A DNA stretch of 48,554 nucleotides, from NCBI GenBank assembly GCA_018656645.1, contig JABHZL010000018.1, positions 1 through 48,554 of the forward strand, given 5' to 3'. This DNA is from Phycisphaerae bacterium. GTDB lineage: Bacteria > Planctomycetota > Phycisphaerae > Phycisphaerales > SM1A02. The stretch's first letter is position 1. Each line of letters opens with the position of its first letter. Below the pieces are notes generated by a model that searched no databases, was not told the DNA's origin, and saw nothing but the letters and a program-made list of their open reading frames with translations. Shown here one piece after another: positions 1,600 through 19,460 of the stretch. A program made the position numbers and the translations under genes.

Positions 1600-1634
1600 C
1601 CGCGCACTTGCGCTCAATTATGGAGAAATATTCA

Positions 1635-4316
1635 ATGGCCACTGCCACCGCAAAAAAGAAAAAATCAACTCGAAAACCAAAGATGACGTACTGTTGGGGA
1701 GCTCTCAAAACCGAGGGTAACGCCACACAAAAGCAGTTACTTGGCGGCAAAGGTGCCAATCTTGCAGAAATGACTTCGATTGGTTTGCCTGTTCCTCCTG
1801 GATTTACGATTCCAACAACAATGTGTGAAGCGTACTACAAAGAAGGTTCAAAAATGCCTCGTGGTCTAAATGAAGCCACGATCAAGGCTATCAAGCAACT
1901 TGAAAAAGAAACAGGTAAAAAATTCGGATCCAAAACAGACCCGCTCCTTGTATCCGTACGTTCTGGTGCCGCAGTCTCGATGCCTGGCATGATGGACACA
2001 GTGTTAAATCTTGGGTTAACTGATGACGCTGTACTTGGAATGATTGCACTTACAGATAACGCACGTTTTGGTTGGGATGCGTACCGCCGACTTATCAATA
2101 TGTTTGGCGATGTAGTCATGGGAATGGAGCACGAAGAATTTGAAAAAGAATTTGATAAAGTAAAAAAGAAACACAAAGTAACTTTAGATACTGAATTGTC
2201 AGCAGAAGGATTGAAAGAAGTTTGTGACCGGTATAAAAAAGTGTACCGACGTCATGTGGGAAAAGAATTTCCACAAGATCCAGTCAAGCAGCTAACGCTT
2301 TCAGTAGAGGCGGTTTTTCGATCATGGAATACACACCGCGCAAAAAGTTACAGGCAAATTAATGACATCACTGGTTTGCGAGGAACTGCTGTCAATGTTC
2401 AAGCGATGGTTTTTGGCAACATGGGCAACGACTGTGGGACAGGTGTTGCATTTACGAGGAACCCATCTACTGGGGAAGATACATTCTTTGGCGAGTTCCT
2501 AATCGATGCGCAAGGTGAAGATGTTGTTGCAGGCATTCGCACGCCAAAGCCAGTTTCTGAAATGAAGAAATGGAATAATCGTATTTATAATGAATTGCTC
2601 AAGGTCAAAAAGACACTTGAAAAACATTACAAAGACATGCAAGATATCGAGTTTACGATTGAACGCGATAAACTCTGGATGCTGCAAACAAGAACAGGTA
2701 AACGTACTGCAGCTGCTGCAGTAAAGTTGGCAGTTGATATGGTAAGAAGCCGGATGATCAAAAAAGACGAAGCATTGCTTCGTATTCCCGCAGGGGATCT
2801 TGTTCAATTATTGCTTCCAAGTTTTACAGCAAAAAGTAAACATAAAGTTAAAACGCTCGCTAAAGGTTTACCTGCCTCGCCGGGAGCAGTAACCGGAACA
2901 CTTGCGTTTTCGGCAGATGATGCGGTAATACGAGCTGAAGCAGGTGAGAATGTTTTGCTTGTTCGAAAAGAAACTTCACCAGAGGATATCGATGGTATGC
3001 ATCACGCTGTTGGTATTTTGACATCAACTGGTGGGATGACAAGTCATGCAGCAGTAGTCGCACGAGGTTGGGGAAAATGTTGCGTTGCGGGTGTATCTGC
3101 ATTACACATTGACGCTGTAAAAAAATGCGTAACAATAGATGGAAAAAAATACACTGAAAAATCAGTGCTCTCTATTGATGGTGGTACAGGCGAAGTAATG
3201 CTAGGTGCTGTTGAGAGACACGAACCAAAACTGAGTGGTGATTTTGACACGATTATGAATTGGGCAGATCAGAGAAGGCGAATGAATGTTCGAACAAATG
3301 CCGATTCTCCTGTGGATGCAAAGAGAGCGAGATCATTTGGTGCAGAAGGTATTGGTTTGACTCGAACAGAACACATGTTCTTTGAAGGGGATCGTATTCT
3401 CGCAATGCGAAGAATGATTCTTGCTGAAACGAAAGGCAAGCGCGAAGAGGCGCTCGCTCGTTTAATGCCATACCAGCGAGACGACTTTATTGGCATCTTT
3501 ACTGCAATGAAAGGTTTGCCTGTTACCGTCCGCTTACTCGATCCTCCATTGCACGAGTTTTTACCTCATGATCGAGCAGGTCAAAAAGAAGTTGCAGAAG
3601 CGATGGGCATTAAACCATCTCGAGTTAAACATCGTGTGGATCAGTTGCATGAATTTAATCCAATGCTTGGGCACCGAGGTTGCCGTCTTGCAGTGACGTA
3701 TCCAGAAATTTTAGTGATGCAAGTTACTGCTATTACTGAAGCAGTTATTGCGTGCAAAAGAAAAAGGATTGACGCACAGCCAGAAATTATGATTCCACTC
3801 GTTGGGATTGAAGAAGAGCTTGAACAACTTCGTGAACTTGCCGCTGAAACCATCGCAATGATTACGAAGAAGGAACGCTATAAAGGGAAATTGAACATTC
3901 CTATCGGAACGATGATTGAAATTCCACGTGCAGCAATTGTTGCTGAACAAATTGCAAAAGTTGCTGATTTTTTCAGCTTTGGAACGAATGACCTCACACA
4001 ACTTACGTACGGTTTTAGCCGAGATGATATTAATAGTTTCTTGCCTCATTATCTTGATTGTGGTGTTTTAGAACGTGATCCATTCCAAACTATTGATCGA
4101 GAAGGCGTTGGGAAACTTATTTCGATGGGTTGCCTTGGTGGCCGCAAAACAAATCCAAAATTGAAAATTGGCATCTGCGGCGAGCATGGCGGAGATCCAT
4201 CTTCGGTAGAATTTTGTCATGAAGTGGGATTAGACTATGTGAGTTGTTCTCCATTTCGTGTTCCAACTGCGAGACTCGCTGCAGCACAGGCAGTAATTAG
4301 GGAATCATTGCGATGA
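1635..4316 (+). CDS. ppdK: Pyruvate, phosphate dikinase
   Basis: PpdK interconverts pyruvate + ATP + Pi with PEP + AMP + PPi. The 893-residue length fits the roughly 880-residue family. The N-terminal ATP-grasp part starts with LLGGKGANLAEM and includes the SVRSGAAVSMPGMMDTVLNLG stretch. The central swivelling domain carries the phosphorylated histidine in GGMTSHAAVVARGWG (His471). The C-terminal TIM-barrel PEP/pyruvate domain has FGTNDLTQLTYG and the catalytic Cys in GICGEHGG (Cys848). The start was placed at the ATG of 1635 because a GGAG lies 9 nt upstream at 1622-1625. In-frame ATG 1620 and TTG 1608 are possible. A Lys-rich stretch follows the initiator. The stop overlaps the HIT gene start by ATGA, so the two are cotranscribed. 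Confidence 0.95.
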   Translation: MATATAKKKKSTRKPKMTYCWGALKTEGNATQKQLLGGKGANLAEMTSIGLPVPPGFTIPTTMCEAYYKEGSKMPRGLNEATIKAIKQLEKETGKKFGSKTDPLLVSVRSGAAVSMPGMMDTVLNLGLTDDAVLGMIALTDNARFGWDAYRRLINMFGDVVMGMEHEEFEKEFDKVKKKHKVTLDTELSAEGLKEVCDRYKKVYRRHVGKEFPQDPVKQLTLSVEAVFRSWNTHRAKSYRQINDITGLRGTAVNVQAMVFGNMGNDCGTGVAFTRNPSTGEDTFFGEFLIDAQGEDVVAGIRTPKPVSEMKKWNNRIYNELLKVKKTLEKHYKDMQDIEFTIERDKLWMLQTRTGKRTAAAAVKLAVDMVRSRMIKKDEALLRIPAGDLVQLLLPSFTAKSKHKVKTLAKGLPASPGAVTGTLAFSADDAVIRAEAGENVLLVRKETSPEDIDGMHHAVGILTSTGGMTSHAAVVARGWGKCCVAGVSALHIDAVKKCVTIDGKKYTEKSVLSIDGGTGEVMLGAVERHEPKLSGDFDTIMNWADQRRRMNVRTNADSPVDAKRARSFGAEGIGLTRTEHMFFEGDRILAMRRMILAETKGKREEALARLMPYQRDDFIGIFTAMKGLPVTVRLLDPPLHEFLPHDRAGQKEVAEAMGIKPSRVKHRVDQLHEFNPMLGHRGCRLAVTYPEILVMQVTAITEAVIACKRKRIDAQPEIMIPLVGIEEELEQLRELAAETIAMITKKERYKGKLNIPIGTMIEIPRAAIVAEQIAKVADFFSFGTNDLTQLTYGFSRDDINSFLPHYLDCGVLERDPFQTIDREGVGKLISMGCLGGRKTNPKLKIGICGEHGGDPSSVEFCHEVGLDYVSCSPFRVPTARLAAAQAVIRESLR

Positions 4317-4754: not shown

Positions 4755-7700
4755 ATGACAGATGAACCAATTACAGAATCAGGAACAGATTCAGGTGAAA
4801 CTGATCCTCTAGCGGAAACATTCGATGGTGAAACCGCTGATTCTGCATGGCTTGATTCAAAAGTGGGGGCTCGGGGTGATGAATGGATCGGGAGTTTTAT
4901 TGGGCAGTTCGAGATCATCCGAGTCATTGGAACGGGGGGCATGGGCAATGTGTATGAAGCGAGGCAAACTAATCCGCACCGATCTGTTGCCATCAAAATA
5001 GTAAAATCAGCAGCAGCTTCTGACACAACATTGCAGCGTTTTGAAATGGAAAGCGAAATGCTTGCACGTTTGCAACATCCAGGCATTGCACAAGTGTATG
5101 AATCCGGTCATCAGGTTCATGATGGAAAGCCGTTACCGTTTTTTGCAATGGAATATGTTGCAGGAAGCCAATCAATTACTGAGTATGCTGACGAGTCAGA
5201 ACTCAGCACCAAGGACAGACTTGCACTTTTTTTGTTGGTGTGTGATGCAGTTCAATATGGACATGGACGGGGCGTTATACACCGTGATCTAAAACCATCA
5301 AACCTCCTCATCAACATCGCTGGCAGACCAAAAGTTATTGACTTTGGTGTTGCACTCTTTGCTGATTCAGATGAAGACCAAAACACGATGACCGCTGATG
5401 GTCGATTCGTTGGAACATTGCAATGGTCGAGCCCAGAGCAGTGTGGAGATGACCCCCACGATGTAGATGTGAGAACGGATGTCTATTCACTTGGTGTTGT
5501 GTTATATCAATTGTTGTTAGGTCAACTTCCCTATGAACTAAAAGGTGTTCCGCTTTACAAAGCTCCAGAAGTTATTCGTAACACGCCTCCTGCAAAACCA
5601 ACATCAATCAATCGTCATATACCAGTCGAGTTAGAATTTATTCTATTAAAGTCCTTGGTGAAGGAACGCGAGAATCGTTATGCCTCTGTTGCAGATTTTG
5701 GAGCAGATATTCGTCGGTATCTAATCGACGAACCAATTCACGCGAAACCTCCTTCAACAATATCAATTATTCGTTTGTATGCACGGCGAAATAAATTGAG
5801 ATTCCAAGCAGGTTTAATTGTTTTTATTGCAATCGTCGTTGGAATGATTGGGCTTTTGTGGGGATATATTGAAGCAGAGGTTGGTCAAAAGAAATTAGTA
5901 GAAGCGTTGAAAGTTAATAGTGAAACGCTTCTCATTTCACAACAGAATGAGTATGCTGCGCACCTTGGTACTGCACAAGTTGCAATGAGTAATGGATCTT
6001 GGTCGATGGCAAGCGAACAACTTTCCTTGACGAAGAATTTTCAGCGTGGATGGGAATGGGAATATTTAAATGCCGAAACAGATCAGTCTGTTTTGCAATG
6101 GCCTCTAGGTGATCGCCCAACAACAATTATCGCATTTAATTCCGGGGAACAAGTTGTAGTTGCAGTTGAAGATGGGCGCGTGCTCATTCTTGATGAAACA
6201 ATGAAAACGTCGTCCGATTTGTACATGGAGAGCAAGGTGCAAACGATTTCTCTTTTTAACGATGATTCTGGAATGTTCCTTGGTACTGTGGGAGGAGAAC
6301 TGGGTTTCTTGGATTTATCTGTCAATTCATTGACAATTAAACAGGCTGATTTTCCATCCTTTTCTGCTTCGGACATTCTTGAAGATAATAGTTTGTTAAC
6401 AGGTCACGCAGATGGCACTGTCCGCTTATGGAGTGCCGATGGCAAATATATCCACACCGTTTCTCAATTCAACAGTCTTGTGATGACTATCGATTGGAAT
6501 GCATCGTTGCAATTTGTTGCAGTTGGTCTAGTTGATGGAAGTGTGTACGTGGTAAGTTTGGACGGTGATCAGCCAATTAAACTTGGAACACATCACGAGA
6601 CAATTTTTGAGGTCAACTTTGTTGATAAACAGGTTCTTGCATCAGCTGGCGGAAGCGATGTGAAATTATGGGATGTTGAAACACTAAAACAAATCGCCAC
6701 AATAACACTAACAAGTGGAGACGCTATTGGGTTAGCAGTTGTTGGAGATTATCTACTAGTTGCCCACGATGATGGACGTATTACAACGTGGTCTATCTCG
6801 ACTCAACAACAAGTCGATACATTACTAGGGCATAACGATATCGTCTGGGGTGTGACAAAATTAGATGATCAACGAGCGGTCTCTGTTGGCAAAGATGGAA
6901 AAATACTTTGGTGGGAAATTGGACAGCCGCCCGTCACTGAAGTTAAAACTGATTCAGGCTTCCCTGCAGCAGATATCGTTTTTGTAGACGCTGATCATGT
7001 GGCTATTGTGTCTCATGTTTCAAGCAATTTGCAGATTACCAATATTTCTACTGGAAAAACAAATACTATCCCAACGCCAAGTTATGAAAAATTAACAACT
7101 GTTGATGCAGTCTTAGGCTCTCGTCTTGTTGTTACAGGTGATATATCAGGAACTGTGCGAACGTGGGACATAACTAAGGAAACAGCAGGGAATTCGCTTG
7201 GCGTGTTGGATTCTGAAATAGTATCTCTCACAGTTTCTAAGAACGGTAAATATGTAGCGGCAGGATCTTTGCATGGAGATGTTGGGGTCTGGGAACTAGA
7301 AACACATGACCGTATATTTGATACATCGTTTGACGGAAGTCTGATCCTTGATGTCGATTTTTCAGATGACAATAAAATGCTTTTTGTTTCTGCTTCCGGT
7401 AAAGAAGTAGTTGCATTTAACGTGACAAGTGGCAACAAGATTTGGTCAACGGGTGCAATTCAATCAGATATTTTCGTTGTCGATGTTGTCCCGTTTACTC
7501 ATAAGATCGTTACTGCAACTAGTCATGGTGTCGTTCAGCTTTTTAATTATAAAACAGGTGAAGTGGTGAAAACCATTCAGTCAAGGGGAGGTGGATTGAG
7601 AGACCTTTCAGTAATGCCAAATGGCAAACGACTGCTGTTAACAACACGAGATGGCGCAGTGCACGTGTGGGATCTTCACAGTTTTAAAAAAATAGTATCG

Positions 7701-7838
7701 TTGCCAGTGTCTCAAGAACTTGACGATATTGCTGTTTCTCCAGATGGGACACGTATTGCTGTAGGTAGTGGGTCGCCTTCAATTCACATCCTCGATAGTG
7801 TTTCAAGGGGCGATCGGATCAGGAATCAAAGGAAATGA
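4755..7838 (+). CDS. Membrane Ser/Thr protein kinase with C-terminal WD40 propeller
   Basis: This is a 1027-residue Hanks-type kinase. The catalytic domain (about residues 50-330) has the glycine loop GTGGMGNVYEA (58-68), the ATP lysine in VAIKIVK (Lys81), the catalytic loop HRDLKPSN (176-183) and DFG (196-198), so it should be active. A single transmembrane segment lies at about 352-373 (LIVFIAIVVGMIGLLWGYI). The rest (about 400-1020) is repeated WD40-type blades, for example DGTVRLWSADG, GSDVKLWDVE and GAVHVWDLHS, making one or two propellers. With kinase first, the propeller would lie across the membrane. An acidic 50-residue tail precedes the kinase. This architecture is very common in Planctomycetes. 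The stop overlaps nadC by ATGA. The ligand and targets are unknown. Confidence 0.92.
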   Translation: MTDEPITESGTDSGETDPLAETFDGETADSAWLDSKVGARGDEWIGSFIGQFEIIRVIGTGGMGNVYEARQTNPHRSVAIKIVKSAAASDTTLQRFEMESEMLARLQHPGIAQVYESGHQVHDGKPLPFFAMEYVAGSQSITEYADESELSTKDRLALFLLVCDAVQYGHGRGVIHRDLKPSNLLINIAGRPKVIDFGVALFADSDEDQNTMTADGRFVGTLQWSSPEQCGDDPHDVDVRTDVYSLGVVLYQLLLGQLPYELKGVPLYKAPEVIRNTPPAKPTSINRHIPVELEFILLKSLVKERENRYASVADFGADIRRYLIDEPIHAKPPSTISIIRLYARRNKLRFQAGLIVFIAIVVGMIGLLWGYIEAEVGQKKLVEALKVNSETLLISQQNEYAAHLGTAQVAMSNGSWSMASEQLSLTKNFQRGWEWEYLNAETDQSVLQWPLGDRPTTIIAFNSGEQVVVAVEDGRVLILDETMKTSSDLYMESKVQTISLFNDDSGMFLGTVGGELGFLDLSVNSLTIKQADFPSFSASDILEDNSLLTGHADGTVRLWSADGKYIHTVSQFNSLVMTIDWNASLQFVAVGLVDGSVYVVSLDGDQPIKLGTHHETIFEVNFVDKQVLASAGGSDVKLWDVETLKQIATITLTSGDAIGLAVVGDYLLVAHDDGRITTWSISTQQQVDTLLGHNDIVWGVTKLDDQRAVSVGKDGKILWWEIGQPPVTEVKTDSGFPAADIVFVDADHVAIVSHVSSNLQITNISTGKTNTIPTPSYEKLTTVDAVLGSRLVVTGDISGTVRTWDITKETAGNSLGVLDSEIVSLTVSKNGKYVAAGSLHGDVGVWELETHDRIFDTSFDGSLILDVDFSDDNKMLFVSASGKEVVAFNVTSGNKIWSTGAIQSDIFVVDVVPFTHKIVTATSHGVVQLFNYKTGEVVKTIQSRGGGLRDLSVMPNGKRLLLTTRDGAVHVWDLHSFKKIVSLPVSQELDDIAVSPDGTRIAVGSGSPSIHILDSVSRGDRIRNQRK

Positions 7839-9449: not shown

Positions 9450-9875
9450 ATGGAAGATAAAACACCAACAGAAGAGATCACCTGGAGCGTGCGGCCATCG
9501 AAAGAGCATCCAAAGAAAGCGGTTTTCGCTTGGGCGATCATTGTGTTTTTTGGGGCTTTCATCACTACGACAAACCTCATTCTTGGGCTTTGTATGATTG
9601 GAGTGCTCGTGGGAACTCAAGCGACATTTCTTTTCACATCGCGATTTATGATTTCTGAGGACGGCTTGAAAGCTAAATATCCACTTCGAACGAAGTATTA
9701 CGGTTGGGAGCAAGTTAAAAGAGCAAAATTCTTCAATGAAGCCTGTTTTCTCTTTTCTCGAAAAAAGCCCTCAAACTTGGATGGGTGGTCAGGAATTGCA
9801 GTCATGTATGGTGACAATAAGGATGAAATCATTAAAGCAATAAAATCGCACCTTCCAAAAGGAACAGCAACATGA
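9450..9875 (+). CDS. Small membrane protein with PH-like tail, first gene of the cluster
   Basis: This is a 141-residue protein not recognised as a named family. A charged N-terminus (about 30 residues) is followed by a hydrophobic hairpin of two transmembrane segments at about 32-70 (AIIVFFGAFITTTNLILGL, then MIGVLVGTQATFLF). A soluble C-terminal half reads like a bacterial PH-type domain: ISEDGLKAKYP, then YYGWEQVKRAKFF and a final helix EIIKAIKSHLP. The pattern 'strand-DGL-strand, W-x-x-V' resembles bPH/YdbS-type domains. The stop overlaps the next gene by ATGA. It probably anchors or scaffolds the products of the downstream genes at the membrane, which is inferred only from position. Confidence 0.75.
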   Translation: MEDKTPTEEITWSVRPSKEHPKKAVFAWAIIVFFGAFITTTNLILGLCMIGVLVGTQATFLFTSRFMISEDGLKAKYPLRTKYYGWEQVKRAKFFNEACFLFSRKKPSNLDGWSGIAVMYGDNKDEIIKAIKSHLPKGTAT

Positions 9876-10222
9876 AAAAAGGCTGGAAACACGCATTTCA
9901 TGTTGATGATGCTGAGGCAATAAACCCAACTGAGCAGCAAAAAAACGCCATAGACAAGCTTTGTAAGGGTATCATTCGCCGTGGATTAACAACACCAGCG
10001 ATCATTGGTGTAGAGATGGGTCGGCCCCTCAATTTTGTTGGGTCGCAGACAATGCATTTTTTTACTCCGCTTATTGCAGCCTTTGTCCCAACGGACAGCT
10101 GGAAAGCAGTAGCGGAGTTTTTAGAACATCGCGGTTCGATTGATTGGATCCGAAACCGTATTGAAGAATTAGAAAACGAGATGGACGAGACTCCGAACAA
10201 ACCAGAAGAACCTACATCATGA
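9872..10222 (+). CDS. Conserved-looking small protein coupled to the ASKHA ATPase
   Basis: This is a 116-residue protein of unknown function. The core is IRRGLTTPAIIGVEMGRPLN followed by FVGSQTMHFFTPLIAAFVP, which is an amphipathic or membrane-dipping segment. A helix with EFLEHRGSIDWIRNRIEELE follows, then an acidic, Pro-rich tail. The 'R-R-G-L-x-T-P-A-x-x-x-x-E-M-x-R-P-L' pattern looks like a conserved family signature, and I recall similar small proteins beside MutL-family genes in other phyla, but cannot verify this. It overlaps both neighbours by ATGA (9872-9875 and 10219-10222), so its translation is tied to the MutL-family gene and it is likely to act with it. Confidence 0.8.
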   Translation: MKKGWKHAFHVDDAEAINPTEQQKNAIDKLCKGIIRRGLTTPAIIGVEMGRPLNFVGSQTMHFFTPLIAAFVPTDSWKAVAEFLEHRGSIDWIRNRIEELENEMDETPNKPEEPTS

Positions 10223-12063
10223 CGATCGATTTAGAAAACATTAATGTCATTCTCGCAACCGATTGCGGAAGTACAACTACAAAAGCAATCCTTATTGAAA
10301 AAGTGGATGGCACCTATCGCCAAACATATCGTGGTGAAGCACCAACAACTGTAGAAAAACCATTTGCAAATGTAACAATCGGCGTAACAAATTCTGTTAC
10401 AGAAGTTGGTGAACTTGCAGGCAGGCAACTTACCAACGAAGACGGGACAATTAAACAACCCGCTCGGGGCTCTGATGGTTGTGATTTGTACATCTCAACA
10501 TCAAGTGCAGGCGGCGGGCTACAAATGATGGTCGCAGGTGTGATCGCTGAAATGACAGCAGCGTCTGCAAAACGAGCAGCACTCGGTGCAGGCGCAATTG
10601 TCATGGATGTGATTTCATCTAACGACAAACGTCGTCCACACGAACAAATTCAGCGAATCCGTGAACTACGACCAGATATGATCCTTATAAGCGGCGGAAC
10701 AGATGGCGGAACAACCGAAAAAGTTGTGCAACTTGCTGAACTGATCGCGCCCGCAAAGCCACAACCTCGCTTTGGCAGTGAATACGAAATGCCAATCATC
10801 TTTGCAGGTAACAAAATGGCATCAGATGAAGTGGAAGCAACTTTGCAGGAGGATTGGATTGATCTTGCGATCGTTGAAAACTTGCGTCCAAAACTTGAAC
10901 AAGAAAACCTTGGCCCAGCTCGAGACAAAATTCATGACGTATTTCTTGAGCATGTGATGGCACACGCTCCTGGTTACGACATGCTCATGGATTGGACAGA
11001 TGCAGACATCATGCCGACCCCCGGTGCAGTTGGTGACATTCTCCAAACAATTGCAAAGAAAGACAACATTAATGTTGTTGGTGTTGACATCGGCGGCGCG
11101 ACAACAGACGTCTTCAGCGTATTTGACGAAACGTTCAACCGAACAGTCTCTGCAAATCTCGGGATGAGTTATTCCATCTCAAATGTTTGCGCTGAAGCGA
11201 CGATGCCAAATGTACTTCGTTGGGTGCATTTTGATATGGACGAACGACAACTTCGCAACCGAGTGAAGAACAAAATGATTCGTCCAACCACGATCCCACA
11301 ATCACTCGAATCACTCATCTTTGAACAAGCCGTTGCTCGCGAAGCACTTCGTCTTGCGTACAAGCAACACAAAGAATTTGCAACAACACTCAAAGGTGTG
11401 CAGCAGCAACGAACTGTGGGCGACACATTCAGCCAACAAACAGCGGGTGCAACGATTGTTAACAACATGACATTGAACTTACTCGTTGCCTCTGGCGGTG
11501 TTCTTTCTCACGCTCCTAGCATGAACCAAACAGCAATGATGCTCATTGATGCATTTGAACCAGAAGGCTGTACAAATCTTGCAAAAGACTCGATCTTTAT
11601 GATGCCACACCTCGGTGTACTCTCAGCAGTGCACCCTAAAGCTGCAGCGCAAGTGTTCGAACGCGATTGCTTGATTTACTTAGGAACATGCATTGCTGCA
11701 AAAGGGCTTGGCAAAGAAGGCAAACCATGTTTTAGTTGGACGCTCTCGGGTGATGTAAACTCGTCTGGAACTTGTAACTTCGGTGACATTGAACTGATTG
11801 AAATGGGTGAAGATCAAAGAGCTACGATTACTTGCGAACCAGTACGCGGTTTCGATTTAGGTGCTGGTAACGGCAAAAAAGTAACACACGAAGTACGCGG
11901 CGGCACAGTTGGGCTCATTATTGATGGTAGAGGTCGCCCACTTGGACTTCCAGAAGATAGACAACAATGCCAAATGTCCATGAAGACATGGGTTGAAAAT
12001 ATGGCACTCTATGAAAACATAAGACAGGATGAAGAGATGGAGCAAGCAGCAGTAACTGCATAA
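10219..12063 (+). CDS. MutL-family ASKHA ATPase (glutamate mutase activator-like)
   Basis: This 614-residue protein resembles MutL/GlmL, the protein that accompanies adenosylcobalamin-dependent glutamate mutase in clostridia. It is not the DNA mismatch-repair MutL. It has the ASKHA nucleotide-binding fold: phosphate-1 motif ATDCGSTTTKAIL (Asp15), a second GVDIGGATTDVFSVF at about residue 288, and an adenosine-type motif LVASGGVLSHAPS at about 420-432. Other marks are YISTSSAGGGLQMMV, LISGGTDGGTTEKVVQLAEL and FAGNKMAS. The usual partners (mutase subunits E and S, B12 genes) are absent. It sits instead with a barrel-sandwich protein and four membrane proteins. The likely role is ATP-driven remodelling or energising of that complex. 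Family assignment is strong and function is inferred. It is 5 bp upstream of the next gene. Confidence 0.88.
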   Translation: MTIDLENINVILATDCGSTTTKAILIEKVDGTYRQTYRGEAPTTVEKPFANVTIGVTNSVTEVGELAGRQLTNEDGTIKQPARGSDGCDLYISTSSAGGGLQMMVAGVIAEMTAASAKRAALGAGAIVMDVISSNDKRRPHEQIQRIRELRPDMILISGGTDGGTTEKVVQLAELIAPAKPQPRFGSEYEMPIIFAGNKMASDEVEATLQEDWIDLAIVENLRPKLEQENLGPARDKIHDVFLEHVMAHAPGYDMLMDWTDADIMPTPGAVGDILQTIAKKDNINVVGVDIGGATTDVFSVFDETFNRTVSANLGMSYSISNVCAEATMPNVLRWVHFDMDERQLRNRVKNKMIRPTTIPQSLESLIFEQAVAREALRLAYKQHKEFATTLKGVQQQRTVGDTFSQQTAGATIVNNMTLNLLVASGGVLSHAPSMNQTAMMLIDAFEPEGCTNLAKDSIFMMPHLGVLSAVHPKAAAQVFERDCLIYLGTCIAAKGLGKEGKPCFSWTLSGDVNSSGTCNFGDIELIEMGEDQRATITCEPVRGFDLGAGNGKKVTHEVRGGTVGLIIDGRGRPLGLPEDRQQCQMSMKTWVENMALYENIRQDEEMEQAAVTA

Positions 12064-12068
12064 TTATT

Positions 12069-13190
12069 ATGGCACACGCATATACCCCCGGACTTAAAGT
12101 TACAAATCGAATGCCACACAGCGCTGTTCGCATGCTTCCCATTAAAGGTGAAGTGATGGTCAGTGTCGGTGATACAGTAAACGCAAACAAAATTGTCGCG
12201 GCAACCTATATGCCCGGCGACGTTTATCCACTCAATATGGCGAACCTTCTTGCAGTTCCACCAAAAGATGTTATGGGTTTGATGCTTCATAAAGAAGGTG
12301 AAAAAGTTGAAGAAGGTCAACCTATTGCAGAAACGGCGGGCATCTTCGGTAAGTTCAAAAAGAAATACAATTCGCCCTACGCTGGAACAATTGAAACTGT
12401 CTCAGATGTCACCGGTCAAGTGATCCTTCGCGGGCCAGACATTCCAGTTGAAGTCAAAGCGTATGTCACTGGAACAGTGACCGCAGTCAATCCAGAAATT
12501 GGTTGCACCATCGAAGCTGATGTTGCATTTATTCAGGGCATCTTTGGTATCGGCGGTGAAACATGCGGTCCGATTAAGTTTGCGGTAAAAAATTACGACG
12601 AAACAGTGACGGCTTCGAACATCTCTGCTGACATGAAAGGCTGCGTTGTCATCGGTGGTGCACGCCTTACGGATAAAGCAATCGAAGCAGCGCGTAAAGC
12701 AGGTGTGGCTGCACTGATTGGCGGGGGCATGGATGACCAAGATCTCAAAGAATTTCTTGGCTATGACCTTGGTGTTGCAATCACAGGCAGCGAGAAAAAA
12801 GGAATTACCGTAATCGTCACCGAAGGCTTTGGCGATATTGCCATGGCAACCCGAACATTTGACCTTCTAAAACGATTTGAAGGTCACGAAGCATCCGTCA
12901 ACGGTGCAACCCAAATCCGTGCCGGAGTGATGCGCCCAGAAATCATAATTCCTTTAGAGGCAGGGGATTGCGAAGAAGAACAAGAACACGCCGGTGGCTA
13001 TCTTGAAATAGGTTTGCCTCTTAGAATTATTCGAGACCCTTATTTTGGCATGCTCGGAACGGTCAGCGACCTTCCACCAGACCCACACGTGCTCGGTTCT
13101 GGTTCAAAAGCACGTGTTCTTGAAGTAAAACTAAGTTCGGGTGAATCGGTTATCGTGCCCAGAGCAAATGTGGAACTTATTGAGGCATAA
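12069..13190 (+). CDS. Barrel-sandwich hybrid / KOW-like partner protein
   Basis: This 373-residue soluble protein has no function that I recognise. The N-terminal third has two short stretches typical of biotinyl/lipoyl-like or RnfC-like barrel-sandwich hybrid folds (GEVMVSVGDTV; HKEGEKVEEGQPIAET, then YAGTIETVSDVTGQVIL). The middle contains GIFGIGGETCGPI, an alpha/beta stretch CVVIGGARLTDKAIEAARKA and VAALIGGGMDDQDLK, then ITVIVTEGFGD. The end, DPYFGMLGTVSDLP and VIVPRANVELIEA, looks like a KOW-type small barrel. No lipoyl or biotinyl lysine motif (MKM/DKA) is seen. It follows the MutL-family gene by 5 bp and was presumably retained with it. A flexible or ring-like adaptor between ATPase and membrane part is one reading. 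Confidence 0.8.
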   Translation: MAHAYTPGLKVTNRMPHSAVRMLPIKGEVMVSVGDTVNANKIVAATYMPGDVYPLNMANLLAVPPKDVMGLMLHKEGEKVEEGQPIAETAGIFGKFKKKYNSPYAGTIETVSDVTGQVILRGPDIPVEVKAYVTGTVTAVNPEIGCTIEADVAFIQGIFGIGGETCGPIKFAVKNYDETVTASNISADMKGCVVIGGARLTDKAIEAARKAGVAALIGGGMDDQDLKEFLGYDLGVAITGSEKKGITVIVTEGFGDIAMATRTFDLLKRFEGHEASVNGATQIRAGVMRPEIIIPLEAGDCEEEQEHAGGYLEIGLPLRIIRDPYFGMLGTVSDLPPDPHVLGSGSKARVLEVKLSSGESVIVPRANVELIEA

Positions 13191-13214
13191 CCCCAGAAAT
13201 TACGGAAGTACTTT

Positions 13215-14558
13215 ATGAGAATACGTACATCATTCCTAACTGTTTTTGCATCGTTCGCAATTGCGATTGTTGCGAATGCACAAACGGCAACCCCTGAACC
13301 AGAGCCTGCCCCCGCTCCGGTCCCTCCGACTGATCTGGTCGTTGCTGACACTCCAGACGATGCTGGCAATTCTGTTGAAGTCGATTGGCAACTTTCTGGC
13401 ACAGACATTTTTAATCCTCTCAATACAGATGCCAAAGATACAGATCCTGAACAAATTGTTGCGGTCTATCAAGTTGAACGAAAAGTTGCAGATGGCAATG
13501 GTGATGTTGTCAGTGAAGAAGAATTAAATTGGCGACAAGTCTCAGAATCAGGCGCTGGCGAATCACATTGGACTGATCGCAGTGTAAAGCGGGGATGGGC
13601 GTACGATTATCGCGTTTGTGCAGTTGACAATCAGGGCGACAAATCGCCATGGTGCAATGCACAGGGTTCGGTTTCTCCAACTATGCAGATGTTCAATATG
13701 TCGAAGGCATGGCTTGCAATCTGGATGATTTTGTTTGGTGCGTTTATTGCATACTTCATTAACCATGCTCGTTCCGGGAAAAAACTTTGGGTACGTAAAA
13801 TTGCTGGACTTGAAGCAATCGATGAAGCAGTTGGTCGCGCTACCGAAATGGGTCGACCAGTTTTGTTTGTCACAGGTATCCAAGACATCAACGAAATTCA
13901 AACGCTTGCTGGTTTGACCGTGCTCTCGCGAGTTGCAAAAACAGCAGCAGAATATGGTGCCCAAATCGAAGTTCCAACGTGCCGATCGCTCGTGATGGCG
14001 GCAGCACGCGAAACAGTTGAAGCTGCGTACCTCGCAGCGGGTGCTCCTGACGCGTATCAACCAGACAGAATTCACTACTTAACAGACGAACAGTTTGCAT
14101 TTGTTGCAGGCGTAACTGGCTACATGGTTAGAGAAGAACCAGCCGCATGCATTTATATGGGTGGTTTCTATGCTGAGTCACTCATTCTCGCTGAAACTGG
14201 TAACCACATCGGCGCAATTCAAGTTGCAGGTACCGCGATGCCAAGTCAGTTGCCGTTCTTCGTTGCGTCTTGCGACTACACGTTGATTGGCGAAGAATTC
14301 TTTGCTGCTTCTGCGTATCTTTCAGGTGATCCACTTCAAATCGGCTCACTCAAAGGGCAGGACTATGGCAAATTCCTCAGTGTATTGGTGCTCGTCATTG
14401 GCATTTTCTTTGCAACCATTGGTTCGATGACAGAATCAGATACAGATGAAGGTTTTGGCACGAGTGCATTGGACTACATATCGAACAACATACTTGGCTC
14501 TGAAGGGCTCGGCTCCTTTGGAGGCGGGGATACGGACATAGAGGGAGATGACTCGTGA
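13215..14558 (+). CDS. Membrane protein: FnIII-like ectodomain and DUF6754-like cytoplasmic domain
   Basis: This is a 447-residue protein. A signal peptide (about 1-22, ending VANAQT) is followed by a Pro/Glu-rich linker and an FnIII-like beta domain at about 35-155 (YQVERKVADG; WTDRSVKRGWAYDYRVCAVD; SPWCNAQGSV). A transmembrane helix lies at about 165-185 (AWLAIWMILFGAFIAYFI), followed by the basic HARSGKKLWVRK, so the next domain (about 195-388) is cytoplasmic. It is alpha/beta and conserved-looking: GRPVLFVTGIQDINEIQTLA, EVPTCRSLVMAAARE, AIQVAGTAMPSQLPFF, GEEFFAASAYLSGDP. I believe this is the family catalogued as DUF6754. A second helix (about 391-410) and an acidic Gly-rich tail follow. 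The start follows the previous gene by 24 bp and the stop overlaps the next by ATGA. Function unknown. Confidence 0.85.
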   Translation: MRIRTSFLTVFASFAIAIVANAQTATPEPEPAPAPVPPTDLVVADTPDDAGNSVEVDWQLSGTDIFNPLNTDAKDTDPEQIVAVYQVERKVADGNGDVVSEEELNWRQVSESGAGESHWTDRSVKRGWAYDYRVCAVDNQGDKSPWCNAQGSVSPTMQMFNMSKAWLAIWMILFGAFIAYFINHARSGKKLWVRKIAGLEAIDEAVGRATEMGRPVLFVTGIQDINEIQTLAGLTVLSRVAKTAAEYGAQIEVPTCRSLVMAAARETVEAAYLAAGAPDAYQPDRIHYLTDEQFAFVAGVTGYMVREEPAACIYMGGFYAESLILAETGNHIGAIQVAGTAMPSQLPFFVASCDYTLIGEEFFAASAYLSGDPLQIGSLKGQDYGKFLSVLVLVIGIFFATIGSMTESDTDEGFGTSALDYISNNILGSEGLGSFGGGDTDIEGDDS

Positions 14559-15250
14559 AAAGAACAGTCCCATTATTTATTGCAATTGTTGCGGGGTTCG
14601 TCCTGCTCATTGCGAACTTCATTCCCTATGCTGAGGGTTGGGGATTAACGGCACAAGAATGGTTTAACATTCTTGCAGTTGGCGCGATGGTCTTGGGTGG
14701 CGGAAATCTGATCAAACTTCACTTGATGAAAGTTTCGGGTCAACGAAAGGGTTGGGGCTACTCTGGAGTTACCATAGTTTGTTTCTTTGGCACCATTATC
14801 ATTGGGATGTCAAAATTTGGTGTGCATCCAAATGCGTTATATCCCGACTATGCTTGGAGTGGCTATTACCTTGAAAGCGGTTCTGGATTGTGGTGGATTT
14901 ATCAGCACATGGTTGTGCCGCTTACATCGATGATGTTTGCAATGTTGGCGTTCTACGTTGCGACTGCAGCCTTTAGAGCTTTTCGTGCAAAGAACACGGA
15001 AGCAACACTTTTGCTTGTTACTGCAGGCGTCGTGCTTCTAGGTAGAACCTACGCAGGTGTTTGGCTCTTTGAGGGCTGGCTCCCTGAATCCATGCTGTGG
15101 TTACGCTTTGACAACTTAACCGTTTGGATTATGGATGTTCCCAATACTGCAGGAACAAGAGCAATCACTATTGGTATTGCGCTTGGCGTTGTTGCAACTT
15201 CACTTCGAATTCTCCTCGGTGTTGACCGTTCTTACTTGGGGCAAGATTAA
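14555..15250 (+). CDS. Polytopic membrane protein of the ASKHA cluster
   Basis: This 231-residue protein has about six predicted transmembrane helices, at roughly 5-25, 36-56, 70-90, 118-142, 150-172 and 205-224. A Trp/Tyr-rich loop (YAWSGYYLESGSGLWWIYQH) lies between helices three and four and another (WLFEGWLPESMLWLRFDN) before the last. No known family motif was recognised. It overlaps the DUF6754-like gene by ATGA and is followed by only 3 bp before the next gene, so the three are almost certainly made together and probably form one membrane complex. An initial GTG (14555) serves as the start. Confidence 0.82.
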   Translation: MKRTVPLFIAIVAGFVLLIANFIPYAEGWGLTAQEWFNILAVGAMVLGGGNLIKLHLMKVSGQRKGWGYSGVTIVCFFGTIIIGMSKFGVHPNALYPDYAWSGYYLESGSGLWWIYQHMVVPLTSMMFAMLAFYVATAAFRAFRAKNTEATLLLVTAGVVLLGRTYAGVWLFEGWLPESMLWLRFDNLTVWIMDVPNTAGTRAITIGIALGVVATSLRILLGVDRSYLGQD

Positions 15251-15253
15251 ATC

Positions 15254-16105
15254 ATGTTAAAAACTCTCCAAAATTTAGATCGACGCTGGATCTTCCTGTC
15301 AATGTTATTGGCGGTTGCAATTCCAATTCTTACAAAAACAGTCTTCCCTGAAGTTGTATCCAAACAAGCCAAAATGGTCTTTGATGCAATTGACGATTTG
15401 CCTGATGGTTCACGAATTCTTTTGTCGTATGACTTTGACCCTGCATCACAAGGTGAATTGTTGCCAATGGCGCAAGCGTTTACACGTCACTGTTCCATCA
15501 AAGGTCACAAACAATACTACATGGCACTCTGGCCACTTGGTTCGCCAATGGTTGACTTGTCGATTGACACAATTAAGTCAGAGTATCCAAACTTGGTTCG
15601 CGGCGAAGACTATGTGAAGTTCGATTACAAAACCGGTGGCGAAGCTGTTATCCGAATGATCACACAAGACCTTCGTGGCATGTTTGAACTCGATTCACGC
15701 GGTATTTCGCTTGATGATATTCCGATGACAAAGAATATTAAAAACATTCAAGATATGGATTTGATTATTAACGTAAGTGCTGGGGACCCTGGCACAAAAC
15801 AATGGGTGCAATTTGCCGCAACGCCATTTGGTATTACAACGGTTTCGGGTTGTACTGGCGTGCAAGCACCACAGATGTATCCCTATATTCCAGAACAACT
15901 TGCTGGTGTACTTGGTGCGATTAAAGCAGCTGCTGAATACGAGGCAGCAATTGACGAATCGTATCCTTCTATTGCTGACAATCCCAAGGCACAAGAAGCA
16001 AAACGAAGAATGGGACCACAGCTAGTGGCGCACAGTTTGATGATTGGATTGATCCTCGTTGGTAACTGGATTTTCTTTATGAGTCGAAAGCGAGGTCAGG
16101 CATGA
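15254..16105 (+). CDS. Bitopic membrane protein with large extracytoplasmic domain
   Basis: This is a 283-residue protein of unknown family. N-terminal helix at about 12-31 preceded by basic DRRW, a soluble alpha/beta domain (about 35-255), and a C-terminal helix at about 257-276 followed by SRKRGQA. The positive-inside rule puts both ends in the cytoplasm and the domain outside. The domain has ILLSYDFDPASQGELLPMA, MALWPLGSPMVDLS and TTVSGCTGVQAPQMYPYIP, then a helical AGVLGAIKAAAEYEAAI. Its last part (a G-x-T/Q motif, a Tyr/Phe-Pro turn, then a helix ending AAxEY/AxAYL) loosely echoes the cytoplasmic domain of the DUF6754-like protein. It overlaps the next gene by ATGA. Confidence 0.82.
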   Translation: MLKTLQNLDRRWIFLSMLLAVAIPILTKTVFPEVVSKQAKMVFDAIDDLPDGSRILLSYDFDPASQGELLPMAQAFTRHCSIKGHKQYYMALWPLGSPMVDLSIDTIKSEYPNLVRGEDYVKFDYKTGGEAVIRMITQDLRGMFELDSRGISLDDIPMTKNIKNIQDMDLIINVSAGDPGTKQWVQFAATPFGITTVSGCTGVQAPQMYPYIPEQLAGVLGAIKAAAEYEAAIDESYPSIADNPKAQEAKRRMGPQLVAHSLMIGLILVGNWIFFMSRKRGQA

Positions 16106-17061
16106 GCACTGATACACCGAAAAAATCAAACGCGTTGATTTGGGGCATCATTTTTGTAATTGGTGCAATCATGCTTGTTTGGAGTATGAGTACCTCGCGA
16201 ACAGGACAGGTCTGGGTAACGCCCGAACAGCATGCGTTCACCGCAGACGCTGATGGTAAGTACAGTTCAACCGATTCACCTACTGCAGGTGATATCGAAT
16301 GGACAACGTACAGCGTTGTTCCAGATAGTGAATTGACTCAAGAGGTAATTGGCAGCGGGGAAGCGAGTTTAAGTTGGTCAAGAACCATTGGCTTGTGGCT
16401 TGCAGCGATGTTTACCCTGTTTATCCTTTCGTTCCTAGTTGGCGATAACCCGGCATATAAATTTGCAGAGGCAATGGTGGTGGGAACGTCTGCGGGGTAC
16501 GTGATGGTCATCGGTATTTGGGACGTTTTCGTTCCGAACTTGCTTGGCAAACTTGCTCCAGGTCTTGTGAAAGCATGGGTGCTACCAGGCATGGATGCAT
16601 CAGCAGGAACGCAGTGGCTCTACATCATTCCAGCAATTCTTATCATCATGTTGTTGTTCCAACTCATGCCTTCTGGCGGTTGGATTAGTCGTTGGCCAAT
16701 TGCATTCTTTATTGGGATTACTGCTGGCTACCGAATGATCGGGTATGTAGAAGCCGACCTTGTTGCTCAAATCAAAGCTGCCATCGTCCCACTTTGGATC
16801 ACGGAAGGGGGATCGTTTGCCTTCTGGCCTACTTTTAATGCCTTCCTTCTGACGATAGCGACTCTGTCTGCGATGATCTACTTCTTCTTCTCGATTGAGC
16901 ACAAGGGCTTAGTCGGCAAGACCGCTCGCGTTGGTATTTGGTTCCTTATGATTACATTCGGTGCTTCCTTTGGCTACACCGTGATGGGTCGTATTGCACT
17001 TCTTGCAGCGCGTTTGGAATTCCTCTTCGGCGAGTGGTTGCACTTCATTCCTTCAAGCTAA
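16102..17061 (+). CDS. Polytopic membrane protein, last gene of the ASKHA cluster
   Basis: This 319-residue protein has about eight hydrophobic segments: one at 12-30, an extracytoplasmic loop of about 60 residues containing VWVTPEQHAF, then helices from about 95 onward (WLAAMFTLFILSFLV; AGYVMVIGIWDVFVP; WLYIIPAILIIMLLFQLMP; PIAFFIGITAGYRMIGYV; TFNAFLLTIATLSAMIYFFF; FLMITFGASFGYTVMGRIAL). The penultimate helix has the small-residue run GASFGYTVMGR. No transporter family signature was recognised. It overlaps the preceding bitopic protein by ATGA. The 195 bp that follow contain no gene, only the rpmF promoter and leader. Confidence 0.82.
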   Translation: MSTDTPKKSNALIWGIIFVIGAIMLVWSMSTSRTGQVWVTPEQHAFTADADGKYSSTDSPTAGDIEWTTYSVVPDSELTQEVIGSGEASLSWSRTIGLWLAAMFTLFILSFLVGDNPAYKFAEAMVVGTSAGYVMVIGIWDVFVPNLLGKLAPGLVKAWVLPGMDASAGTQWLYIIPAILIIMLLFQLMPSGGWISRWPIAFFIGITAGYRMIGYVEADLVAQIKAAIVPLWITEGGSFAFWPTFNAFLLTIATLSAMIYFFFSIEHKGLVGKTARVGIWFLMITFGASFGYTVMGRIALLAARLEFLFGEWLHFIPSS

Positions 17062-17445: not shown

Positions 17446-18468
17446 ATGAGAATCGGCGTCGATGTGATGGGGGGCGATCACGCACCACACCCTATTCTTG
17501 AGGGTGCGCTGTCTGCTATCAAACATCTGCACGACGAGGACACTGTCGTGTTATTTGGTGATGAACAAATCATCGAACAAGGTGTTGCAAATTCAGATGT
17601 CGATCAGTCTCGGGTCGAAATAGTCGCCACAACACAAGAAATCACAATGGACGAAAGTCCCGTTGACGCAGTCCGCCAAAAACAAGACAGTTCACTCGTT
17701 CAACTGTGTAGGGCGGGAAGTAAAAAATCAGAAAATCCAATCGATGCAGTGATTTCCGCAGGAAATACCGGTGCTTTTGTCGCTGCAAGTCAAATGTACT
17801 TACGGCGATTGCCAAATGTACATCGCCCTGGAATCGCTGCAGCGGTTCCAACTTTTGCGGGAACGGTTGCATTTATCGACGTAGGTGCGAACATCGAACC
17901 AAAACCAGTGCACCTTGCTCAGTACGGTGTGATGGGAAAAGTGTATGCAGAACGAATTTTGGGAATTGAAAACCCGCGCGTTGCTCTGATGAATGTTGGA
18001 GGCGAAGAGCAAAAGGGAACAAGTGATTTAAAAGATGCTCGTGATATGCTCCGCGACGCAGCTGACATTAATTTTATTGGTTACATTGAAGGTCGAACGC
18101 TCTTTGATGGCGGCGCTGATGTTGTCATCACCGACGGCATTGTTGGCAATGTATCCATCAAACTCGCTGAAGGGCTTGCAACTGGGCTCATCACAAAACT
18201 TGCTGGTGAGATCATGAAGGCCGACCCGAAGCTCGCTGAAGCGTTTAAACCAATTATTAAGAAGTTTTACGCTGATTACGATTATCACGAATACGGCGGC
18301 GCACCACTTCTGGGAGTAAATGGTGTTTCAATGATCACCCACGGAAGTGCTGAAGCGAAAACCATTGAAAACGCAGTCCGCAGGACGCAGCAATTCGTTG
18401 ATTTTGAGGTTAACGAGCACATTGTCGAACAACTCGCCGCAATTGAAGAACGAATCACCGTAGCATGA
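17446..18468 (+). CDS. plsX: Phosphate acyltransferase PlsX
   Basis: PlsX makes acyl-phosphate from acyl-ACP for phospholipid synthesis, at the inner face of the membrane. The 340-residue protein begins with the diagnostic RIGVDVMGGDHAP and contains DAVISAGNTGAFVAAS, RPGIAAAVPT, FIDVGAN, ALMNVGGEEQKGT, DVVITDGIVGNVSIKLAEG and EYGGAPLLGVNG. The length is normal. It lies between rpmF and fabH, and its stop overlaps the fabH ATG by 4 bp. Confidence 0.97.
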   Translation: MRIGVDVMGGDHAPHPILEGALSAIKHLHDEDTVVLFGDEQIIEQGVANSDVDQSRVEIVATTQEITMDESPVDAVRQKQDSSLVQLCRAGSKKSENPIDAVISAGNTGAFVAASQMYLRRLPNVHRPGIAAAVPTFAGTVAFIDVGANIEPKPVHLAQYGVMGKVYAERILGIENPRVALMNVGGEEQKGTSDLKDARDMLRDAADINFIGYIEGRTLFDGGADVVITDGIVGNVSIKLAEGLATGLITKLAGEIMKADPKLAEAFKPIIKKFYADYDYHEYGGAPLLGVNGVSMITHGSAEAKTIENAVRRTQQFVDFEVNEHIVEQLAAIEERITVA

Positions 18469-19460
18469 CACCGATGAAACCTTGTGGTGTACGAGTATTG
18501 GGTACTGGGTCTGCTGTCCCGGAGTACGTTCTTGACAATGAAGAACTTGCCAAGGAGCACGGTGTTGAACCCGAGTGGATCGAACAACGCACTGGCATTA
18601 TCGAGCGCCGAATATGCAATGAAGATGAAGGTACATTTGAATTGCAATGTCGAGCGCTCAAAGCAGCCCTTCAAGACACAGGTCTTACAGGTTCTGACCT
18701 TTCACTTATCATTTGCGCATCGGTGACGCCCGAAATGATGTGTCCTTCAAATGCATGCCGAGTCGCAGCAGAAGTGAATGCAAAGCCCGCGGGCGCTTTT
18801 GACCTTGTTGCTGCATGTTGTGGTTTTGTATATGCCATGAATGTGGCCGACTCACTGATTCGTTCAGGTTTTTACAAAACAATCGCAGTAATTGGTTGTG
18901 ATGCGATGAGTAAACTCACCGATCGTAGTGACCGAGGGACCTCAATTCTTTTTGGTGATGCTGCTGGCGCTGTAATTTTGACTTGCGATGATGACCCGGA
19001 ACGTGGTTGTTTTTATCAAAAAATGAATGCCAATGGTGAACCATGGCCTGCACTTTACATTCCAACAAAAGAATCACAAGTTGTAGAAGGTGATACTGCA
19101 ACGACAGAAATAGGTATGCTGCGAATGCAAGGCAAGGAAGTGTATAAGTTTGCAGTTTCTACTTTTACTAAAATTACAGAAGAACTATTGAACGAAACTG
19201 GGTTGAAGCCAGACGATGTTGCTCAATTTATTTGCCATCAATCTAACATGCGAATCATCGAATCTGCACAGGAAAAACTTGGCCTTCCTGATGACAAAGT
19301 TTATAAAAACATACGTCTTTTTGGAAATAGTTCTAGCGGATCAGCCGCTTTATGCTTTGACCAATTGTGGCAAGCGGGAAAAATGAAGCACGGCGACACA
19401 ATAGTGATGCTGGCTTTTGGTGGCGGCCTCACATGGTCAAGCAGCGCGTGGAGACTCTAA
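18465..19460 (+). CDS. fabH: 3-oxoacyl-ACP synthase III (FabH)
   Basis: FabH condenses acetyl-CoA with malonyl-ACP to start fatty acid synthesis. The 331-residue sequence contains the catalytic triad: Cys in LVAACCGFVYAMN, His in FICHQSNMRIIES and Asn in LFGNSSSGSA. Other motifs are the N-terminal GTGSAVPEY and EWIEQRTGI, and a C-terminal LAFGGGLTWSS. ATG 18465 overlaps the plsX stop; a second in-frame ATG at 18474 is possible. fabD begins 3 bp after the stop. Confidence 0.96.
   Translation: MTPMKPCGVRVLGTGSAVPEYVLDNEELAKEHGVEPEWIEQRTGIIERRICNEDEGTFELQCRALKAALQDTGLTGSDLSLIICASVTPEMMCPSNACRVAAEVNAKPAGAFDLVAACCGFVYAMNVADSLIRSGFYKTIAVIGCDAMSKLTDRSDRGTSILFGDAAGAVILTCDDDPERGCFYQKMNANGEPWPALYIPTKESQVVEGDTATTEIGMLRMQGKEVYKFAVSTFTKITEELLNETGLKPDDVAQFICHQSNMRIIESAQEKLGLPDDKVYKNIRLFGNSSSGSAALCFDQLWQAGKMKHGDTIVMLAFGGGLTWSSSAWRL

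Follow-up and report, generated by a model that had tools for sequence, protein, structure and literature searches.

The 48,554-nucleotide stretch analysed here (the window), contig JABHZL010000018.1 of a Phycisphaerae bacterium from the Planctomycetota, contains eight tightly packed genes, p1 to p8 (Table 1), in which a MutL-family ATPase with the ASKHA (actin/Hsp70) fold, p3, and a soluble partner, p4, are encoded together with the membrane proteins p5 to p8. Our best reading, to which we give a probability of about one half, is that the cluster encodes an inner-membrane system in which a cytoplasmic, ATP-dependent MutL–p4 unit cycles or remodels a complex of p5–p8. The observed basis is the gene set, its conservation and co-occurrence, the fusion of MutL to p4, the conservation of the ATP site, and high-confidence models for p5 and p7; from these we infer both the association of MutL–p4 with p5–p8 and its ATP-driven action. 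MutL/GlmL is the accessory ATPase of adenosylcobalamin glutamate mutase, and to our knowledge the family has been known only as a helper of vitamin B12 enzymes.

Table 1. The eight genes of the cluster, with window coordinates and predicted features (TM, transmembrane helix).
Protein	Length (aa)	Position	Strand	Predicted features
p1	141	9450..9875	+	Membrane protein, bacterial-PH-like domain; accessory, frequent but not universal
p2	116	9872..10222	+	Small, soluble-looking protein
p3	614	10219..12063	+	MutL-family ASKHA ATPase with conserved C-terminal extension (~residues 485-614)
p4		12069..13190	+	Soluble; barrel-sandwich hybrid (biotinyl/RnfC/NqrA-like), middle domain, C-terminal KOW
p5		13215..14558	+	Signal/TM, extracytoplasmic FnIII, TM, cytoplasmic Rossmann-like DUF6754, TM
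p6		14555..15250	+	Six TM (hydropathy); no known family
p7		15254..16105	+	TM, extracytoplasmic Rossmann-like domain, TM; no known family
p8		16102..17061	+	About six TM (hydropathy); no known family

Conservation and distribution of the cluster

The original prediction described eight packed genes on one strand, joined by ATGA overlaps or gaps of 3–24 bp, and the coordinates of the open reading frames (ORFs) bear this out, with four 4-base overlaps of the ATGA/GTGA type and gaps of 3, 5 and 24 bases. Gene order was counted with iterative hidden Markov models for p1–p8 on 120 loci plus the window. Among testable cases the junctions within the membrane module are kept in 140 of 150 (p5–p6), 136 of 138 (p6–p7) and 135 of 136 (p7–p8), and those before it in 60 of 69 (p4–p5), 52 of 66 (MutL–p4), 41 of 57 (p2–MutL) and 18 of 21 (p1–p2); median gaps at these junctions range from −4 to 28 bases. 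The cluster recurs across many phyla, most of them poorly represented in the literature, and for this reason the eight-gene arrangement is not a product of chance.

A profile scan of GTDB species genomes for DUF6754, the Pfam domain of p5, returned at least 575 confirmed stretches. The best 80 of these come from records titled Planctomycetota, Zixibacteria, WOR-3, Stahlbacteria, Cloacimonadota, Latescibacterota, Neomarinimicrobiota, Coatesbacteria, Aegiribacteria, Acidobacteria and Gemmatimonadota, among others; individual labels of metagenome-assembled genomes may be wrong, and the wide spread across phyla stands regardless. MutL was present in 20 of the 21 whole DUF6754 genomes reached through named loci, and in the Zixibacteria group (the phylum to which one Zixibacteria chromosome belongs) all 80 sampled genomes carry DUF6754, with a median of five copies. 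On this sequence evidence the cassette is ancient.

The association was also surveyed in 392 Planctomycetota genomes, counting MutL and glutamate mutase subunit E (GlmE) over cut-off. DUF6754 occurs in 111 of them, MutL in 116 and both in 104, a co-occurrence whose Fisher P value of 1e-71 is inflated by relatedness; genus-level tallies (77 of 267 for DUF6754 and 84 of 267 for MutL) agree with the genome-level picture. Only six of the 392 genomes have GlmE over cut-off, in each case with a different MutL next to it, and five of the 12 genomes that have MutL without DUF6754 encode it. DUF6754 is found no more than 12 kb away from 65 of the 126 MutL copies, at a median gap of 2 kb, and GlmE no more than 3 kb away from five; no copy is near both.

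Some groups carry more than one membrane module per ATPase. In Zixibacteria, two or three p5–p8 modules stand in tandem beside a single MutL–p4 locus, and in a tree of p7 the first, second and third copies cluster largely by position (loci L113 and L136 excepted), which indicates that the modules are old paralogues that have been kept separately. On a Coatesbacteria chromosome (L151 9878-21009), a second p5–p8 module in inverted orientation divides MutL in two, through either a genuine inversion or an assembly error. In one Neomarinimicrobiota locus (L093 5561-11908), a 6.5-kb island with a methylase-like gene and a large ATPase-like gene, both assigned by eye, separates p5 from p6.

The MutL-family ATPase

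The p3 protein matches the MutL family (PF13941) over the entire profile, positions 1–450 of 450, at 428 bits (cut-off 27; E=4e-128), and shares the ATP-site motifs of the MutL/GlmL of glutamate mutase. In an alignment of 28 divergent MutL proteins across phyla, the ASKHA motifs are invariant, namely TDCGSTTTK (phosphate-1), VDIGGATTD (phosphate-2) and SGGxLSHxP (adenosine). The same alignment contains further long invariant blocks, RTVSANxGMSYS and NKMxRPTTxP, and a C-terminal extension that terminates in GGxxGxxxDxRGxP and that GlmL lacks. Between the window protein and members in other phyla identity is 53–91%. A PDB sequence search with MutL gave no relative above noise.

The differences from GlmL are considerable. 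True GlmL proteins, encoded beside GlmE, are about 150 residues shorter and 27–29% identical to p3, and the best GlmL-type matches in the plasmid collection fall in the same range of identity (27–29%) and end at about residue 480–483, some of them annotated beside mutase S. The window protein scores below the NCBIfam thresholds for the GlmL equivalog (235 bits against 475 required) and for its ornithine-pathway relative (209 against 600), and it has the p4 partner and membrane operon described here. In the MutL tree the DUF6754-linked proteins form one clade (support 0.98), while the GlmE-linked proteins and similar short ones form another (support 1.0), and the MutLs of the window clade are not found beside mutase subunits. 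None of the three outcomes that the original prediction named as refuting it was therefore observed, the cluster being conserved in many phyla and the ASKHA motifs invariant. GlmE itself (PF06368) is absent from the whole source genome. The original prediction had gone further in stating that all B12 genes were absent, which holds for the window as seen; other contigs of the genome, however, have genes for further proteins with B12 domains and for one of the methylmalonyl-CoA mutase type.

A third group of MutLs, in pairs or fusions with p4, branches beside the DUF6754-linked clade. Its loci (L168, L171, L172, L173, L177, L207, L208 and L209) have a divergent p4 beside or fused to MutL and no DUF6754 module nearby, and the hosts are Planctomycetota and genomes reached through the loci of other groups.

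The ASKHA motifs of MutL are invariant and none of the eight proteins contains a Walker A motif ([AG]x4GK[ST]), so that MutL is the sole recognisable nucleotidase of p1–p8.

The p4 partner and the small proteins p1 and p2

Like p3, p4 is well conserved, with members across phyla 47–79% identical to the window protein, and in three loci labelled Neomarinimicrobiota (L093, L096 and L082) MutL and p4 are naturally fused in one continuous ORF. The window p4 matches Biotin_lipoyl just over the cut-off (E=4e-5) and RnfC_N weakly; among 39 members, 33 match Biotin_lipoyl, 26 RnfC_N, 10 KOW and nine NQRA_N, and a PDB sequence search with the p4 profile gave no relative above noise. The likeness to RnfC/NqrA and to biotinyl/lipoyl carriers lies in the barrel-sandwich hybrid domain that these models score, whereas p4 differs in lacking CxxC (in the window protein) and a conserved acceptor lysine and in having a C-terminal KOW domain and an ASKHA partner. 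In the hairpin at residues 88–101 no acceptor lysine is invariant (the commonest is present in 29 of 39 members), and a largely conserved GxFGxFK pattern is found instead, which argues that p4 is a barrel-sandwich adaptor, not a carrier. A role as a biotin or lipoate carrier had been prompted by the BirA-like gene upstream and by a lipoate-ligase-like gene (by eye) immediately after p8 in L206; it was rejected since there is no conserved lysine. Neither CxxC nor a biotinyl/lipoyl motif occurs in p1–p8, and the only DxHxxG among them falls within the p4 KOW region, at a place where no histidine is conserved in the consensus of the alignment.

A single transmembrane (TM) helix is predicted in p1 by hydropathy, and its bPH_6 score of 21.5 bits is just below the 22-bit cut-off. 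Members of the p2 family, among 25 of which no Pfam match recurred, align around the motif LExxRPLNxxGxQxMxFFxP...LExRxSID. Zixibacteria loci (L128 2541-3299, L210 10242-11063 and four others) have one further gene inserted between those for MutL and p4; its product is signal-peptide-like and carries a TM helix at the C terminus.

The membrane module p5–p8

The p5 protein is a full member of DUF6754 (PF20539; 402 bits against a cut-off of 27, E=9e-121), a family without a described function. Its AlphaFold model, with a predicted local distance difference test (pLDDT) score of 90, consists of an FnIII domain, a TM helix, six strand-helix units forming DUF6754 (about residues 197–370) and a long helix that runs into a TM segment. 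The original prediction had named a MutL-family ASKHA ATPase, a barrel-sandwich/KOW-like protein and a DUF6754-like protein, all of which are confirmed, and an FnIII domain, which is now seen in the model: residues 32–157 align with titin FnIII with a VIA-align Z of 13.5 and 1.8 Å over 97 residues. Since many p5 homologues are without the FnIII region, it is not part of the conserved core. Charge distribution predicts that the DUF6754 domain, with its conserved acidic residues E321, E327, D354, E360 and E361, faces the cytoplasm. When the whole of p5 was used in a PDB fold search, FnIII matches filled the list and the DUF6754 fold was barely covered.

The p7 model (pLDDT 94) has a TM helix, six strand-helix units in a Rossmann-like fold and a C-terminal TM helix, and its domain is predicted from positive-inside charges to lie outside. 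The original prediction of a bitopic protein with a large extracytoplasmic domain is corrected by this model, in which p7 is not simply bitopic and has a TM helix at each end with the Rossmann-like domain between. Only generic Rossmann folds were matched by p7 in the PDB (best Z 9.4, 3.8 Å over 141 residues), and PDB sequence searches with the p5 and p7 profiles found no relative above noise. The predicted order of secondary structure is alike in p5 and p7, with six strand-helix units followed by a TM helix, and on their models the two look like one architecture in opposite orientations, which might reflect a common origin. Profile–profile comparison gave no significant sequence homology between p5 and p7, nor did the corresponding comparison of p6 with p8. 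A Pfam scan of p2, p6, p7 and p8 gave nothing above noise, with no convincing match among 33 members of p6 and no recurrent one among 29 members of p8. Together, synteny, co-occurrence, topology and models give good support to the original prediction in assigning the ATPase to a membrane complex with domains on either side of the membrane. Its further suggestion, that the ATPase was recruited to energise or remodel this complex, would be the best reading.

Neighbouring genes

Clustering of neighbours across loci revealed no family broadly common to phyla beyond p1–p8. Within the window no RNA families or tRNAs were found, and counts of promoter- and terminator-like motifs within the cluster were not above those in shuffled sequence. 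Upstream of the cluster lie a pyruvate phosphate dikinase-type gene about 5 kb away (window 1608-4316; Phycisphaerae), a gene for a 1027-residue Ser/Thr kinase with C-terminal WD40-like repeats assigned by eye (window 4755-7838), and then nadC and birA. Pyruvate phosphate dikinase-type genes are also found in Zixibacteria, about 1 kb downstream (L109, L112, L118, L138, L141 and L142).

Other neighbours recur within or between lineages. The pair plsX–fabH lies just past the cassette in Phycisphaerae (window 17446-19460) and just past MutL in a WOR-3 genome (L204 11440-13379), and the glycine cleavage gene gcvPB directly precedes p2 or p1–p2–MutL in three loci of different groups (L204, L206 and L147). 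Six Zixibacteria-group loci were examined (L198-L203), and in all of them a nucleotidyltransferase-like gene, metK and ahcY come after a short p5–p8 module lacking FnIII; in four of the six panC directly precedes the module. ExbB/ExbD-type genes occur within about 3–4 kb of the cassette in three groups, Zixibacteria (L128, L142, L210), WOR-3 (L130, L140, L143, L150) and Planctomycetota, with L033 and L080 completing the list of such loci.

A proposed mechanism and its alternatives

We propose a system in two parts. The first would be a cytoplasmic ATP-dependent unit, the p3 ATPase bound to p4, which p2 and p1 probably steer to the membrane. The second would be a four-subunit complex of two six-TM proteins, p6 and p8, and two TM-anchored Rossmann-like proteins whose domains would lie on opposite faces, DUF6754 of p5 in the cytoplasm and that of p7 outward. 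ATP-bound MutL, with p4, may dock onto the cytoplasmic DUF6754 domain, and binding and hydrolysis of ATP would then close and open the ASKHA cleft and so change the state of p5–p8. The most likely result would be that the passage of something across the inner membrane is driven or gated; transport or gating is the output that we favour, although as a specific assignment it is doubtful. A single MutL–p4 unit could be shared, engaging and cycling each p5–p8 complex of the cell. A shared ATP-dependent unit is the simplest account because the ATPase and p4 usually form a single locus while several modules are present per cell in some groups, because the ATP site is strongly constrained, and because soluble domains are conserved on both faces of the membrane.

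Several observations weigh against this proposal. In a number of families p2–MutL–p4 lies far from p5–p8 (L035 and L036; L065 and L061), and linkage is therefore not obligatory. MutL–p4 pairs and fusions of the related clade exist without a nearby p5–p8 module, which suggests that these two proteins form the more basic partnership. In G153, a genome that is 99% complete, p2–MutL–p4 is present (locus L176) and DUF6754 gave no match. MutL–p4 may thus have another partner. The adjoining housekeeping genes, moreover, show no consistent functional theme.

The main rival, which we regard as unlikely, is that MutL–p4 forms an assembly platform or scaffold whose nucleotide state controls an envelope structure made of p5–p8 and FnIII, with no continuous energy coupling. 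Precedents are PilM of type IV pili, the cytoplasmic domain of GspL in type II secretion, and FtsA, all ASKHA-fold proteins at the cytoplasmic face of multi-subunit membrane complexes, a position that p3 would share by analogy. One related MutL matches MreB-like_C at the cut-off and another matches FtsA weakly, Zixibacteria, WOR-3 and Planctomycetota loci have ExbB/ExbD-type genes close to the cassette, and multiple paralogous modules would fit a hetero-oligomeric structure. Compared with these proteins p3 is much larger and has complete, invariant ATP-site motifs; Pfam matches revealed no family in common among the membrane partners, which leaves room for a relation at the level of fold. Against this rival, FnIII is absent from many p5 proteins, so the conserved core is not a surface for adhesion or structure, and conservation is strongest in the ATP site, in p4 and in the DUF6754 domain on the cytoplasmic side.

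A sensor or signalling system, in which p7 and FnIII read the outside and DUF6754 with MutL–p4 relays a nucleotide-dependent signal inside, would account for domains on both membrane faces and for the DUF4388-like and roadblock-like genes (by eye) after p8 in WOR-3 loci. It is improbable, since the cassette is not accompanied from phylum to phylum by any recurring family of output genes and two polytopic subunits exceed the needs of a simple receptor. It is very improbable that p5–p8 is a membrane enzyme complex, for example of one-carbon or lipid chemistry, reactivated by MutL–p4 in the manner of diol-dehydratase-type reactivases: the conserved acidic residues of DUF6754 and the lineage-level neighbours gcv (three loci), metK–ahcY (six Zixibacteria loci) and plsX–fabH (two groups) would suit such chemistry, but the eight proteins have no cofactor motif and the neighbours differ from phylum to phylum. 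Least probable of all is that MutL remains a reactivase or chaperone of an adenosylcobalamin enzyme encoded elsewhere, with the membrane genes as mere co-transcribed neighbours, for although PF13941 membership and the B12-domain and methylmalonyl-CoA-mutase-type proteins of the source genome fit this, the lack of GlmE, the separate and shorter GlmE-linked clade, GlmL equivalog scores far below both cut-offs, and a co-occurrence with DUF6754 too tight and widespread for a chance neighbourhood all argue against it.

Returning to the proposal that MutL–p4 cycles p5–p8, the arrangement differs from P-loop transporters (ABC and others) in that no Walker A ATPase is encoded with the membrane proteins. 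As the complex matches no described system, it may represent a new kind of ATP-driven membrane machine, and we hold tentatively to the possibility that an ASKHA MutL, not a P-loop ATPase, powers p5–p8 and defines a new class. The system appears new in kind, although a later structure could still place it, as a divergent member, among known transporters or assembly platforms.

Significance

An open-access literature search found no paper on DUF6754 or PF13941, and the main text of a transposon-directed insertion site sequencing (TraDIS) study of Planctopirus limnophila names neither MutL nor glutamate mutase (PMC10632474). Genetic testing is feasible in cultured relatives, as records of Thalassoglobus neptunius and Gimesia contain parts of the cassette.

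Annotations as ‘glutamate mutase L’ in these phyla are probably misleading, and the known jobs of the MutL/GlmL family would widen from helping B12 enzymes to working with a membrane complex. The gene set evolves slowly, lacks a described function and occurs, mostly in more than one copy, in all 80 genomes sampled from one phylum-level group, which suggests that a part of core cell biology is still missing from our picture of Planctomycetota and related uncultured phyla. If our proposal is true, the system would count as core equipment in Zixibacteria, would be widespread among the Planctomycetota and related phyla, and would use one ATPase to serve several paralogous membrane modules.

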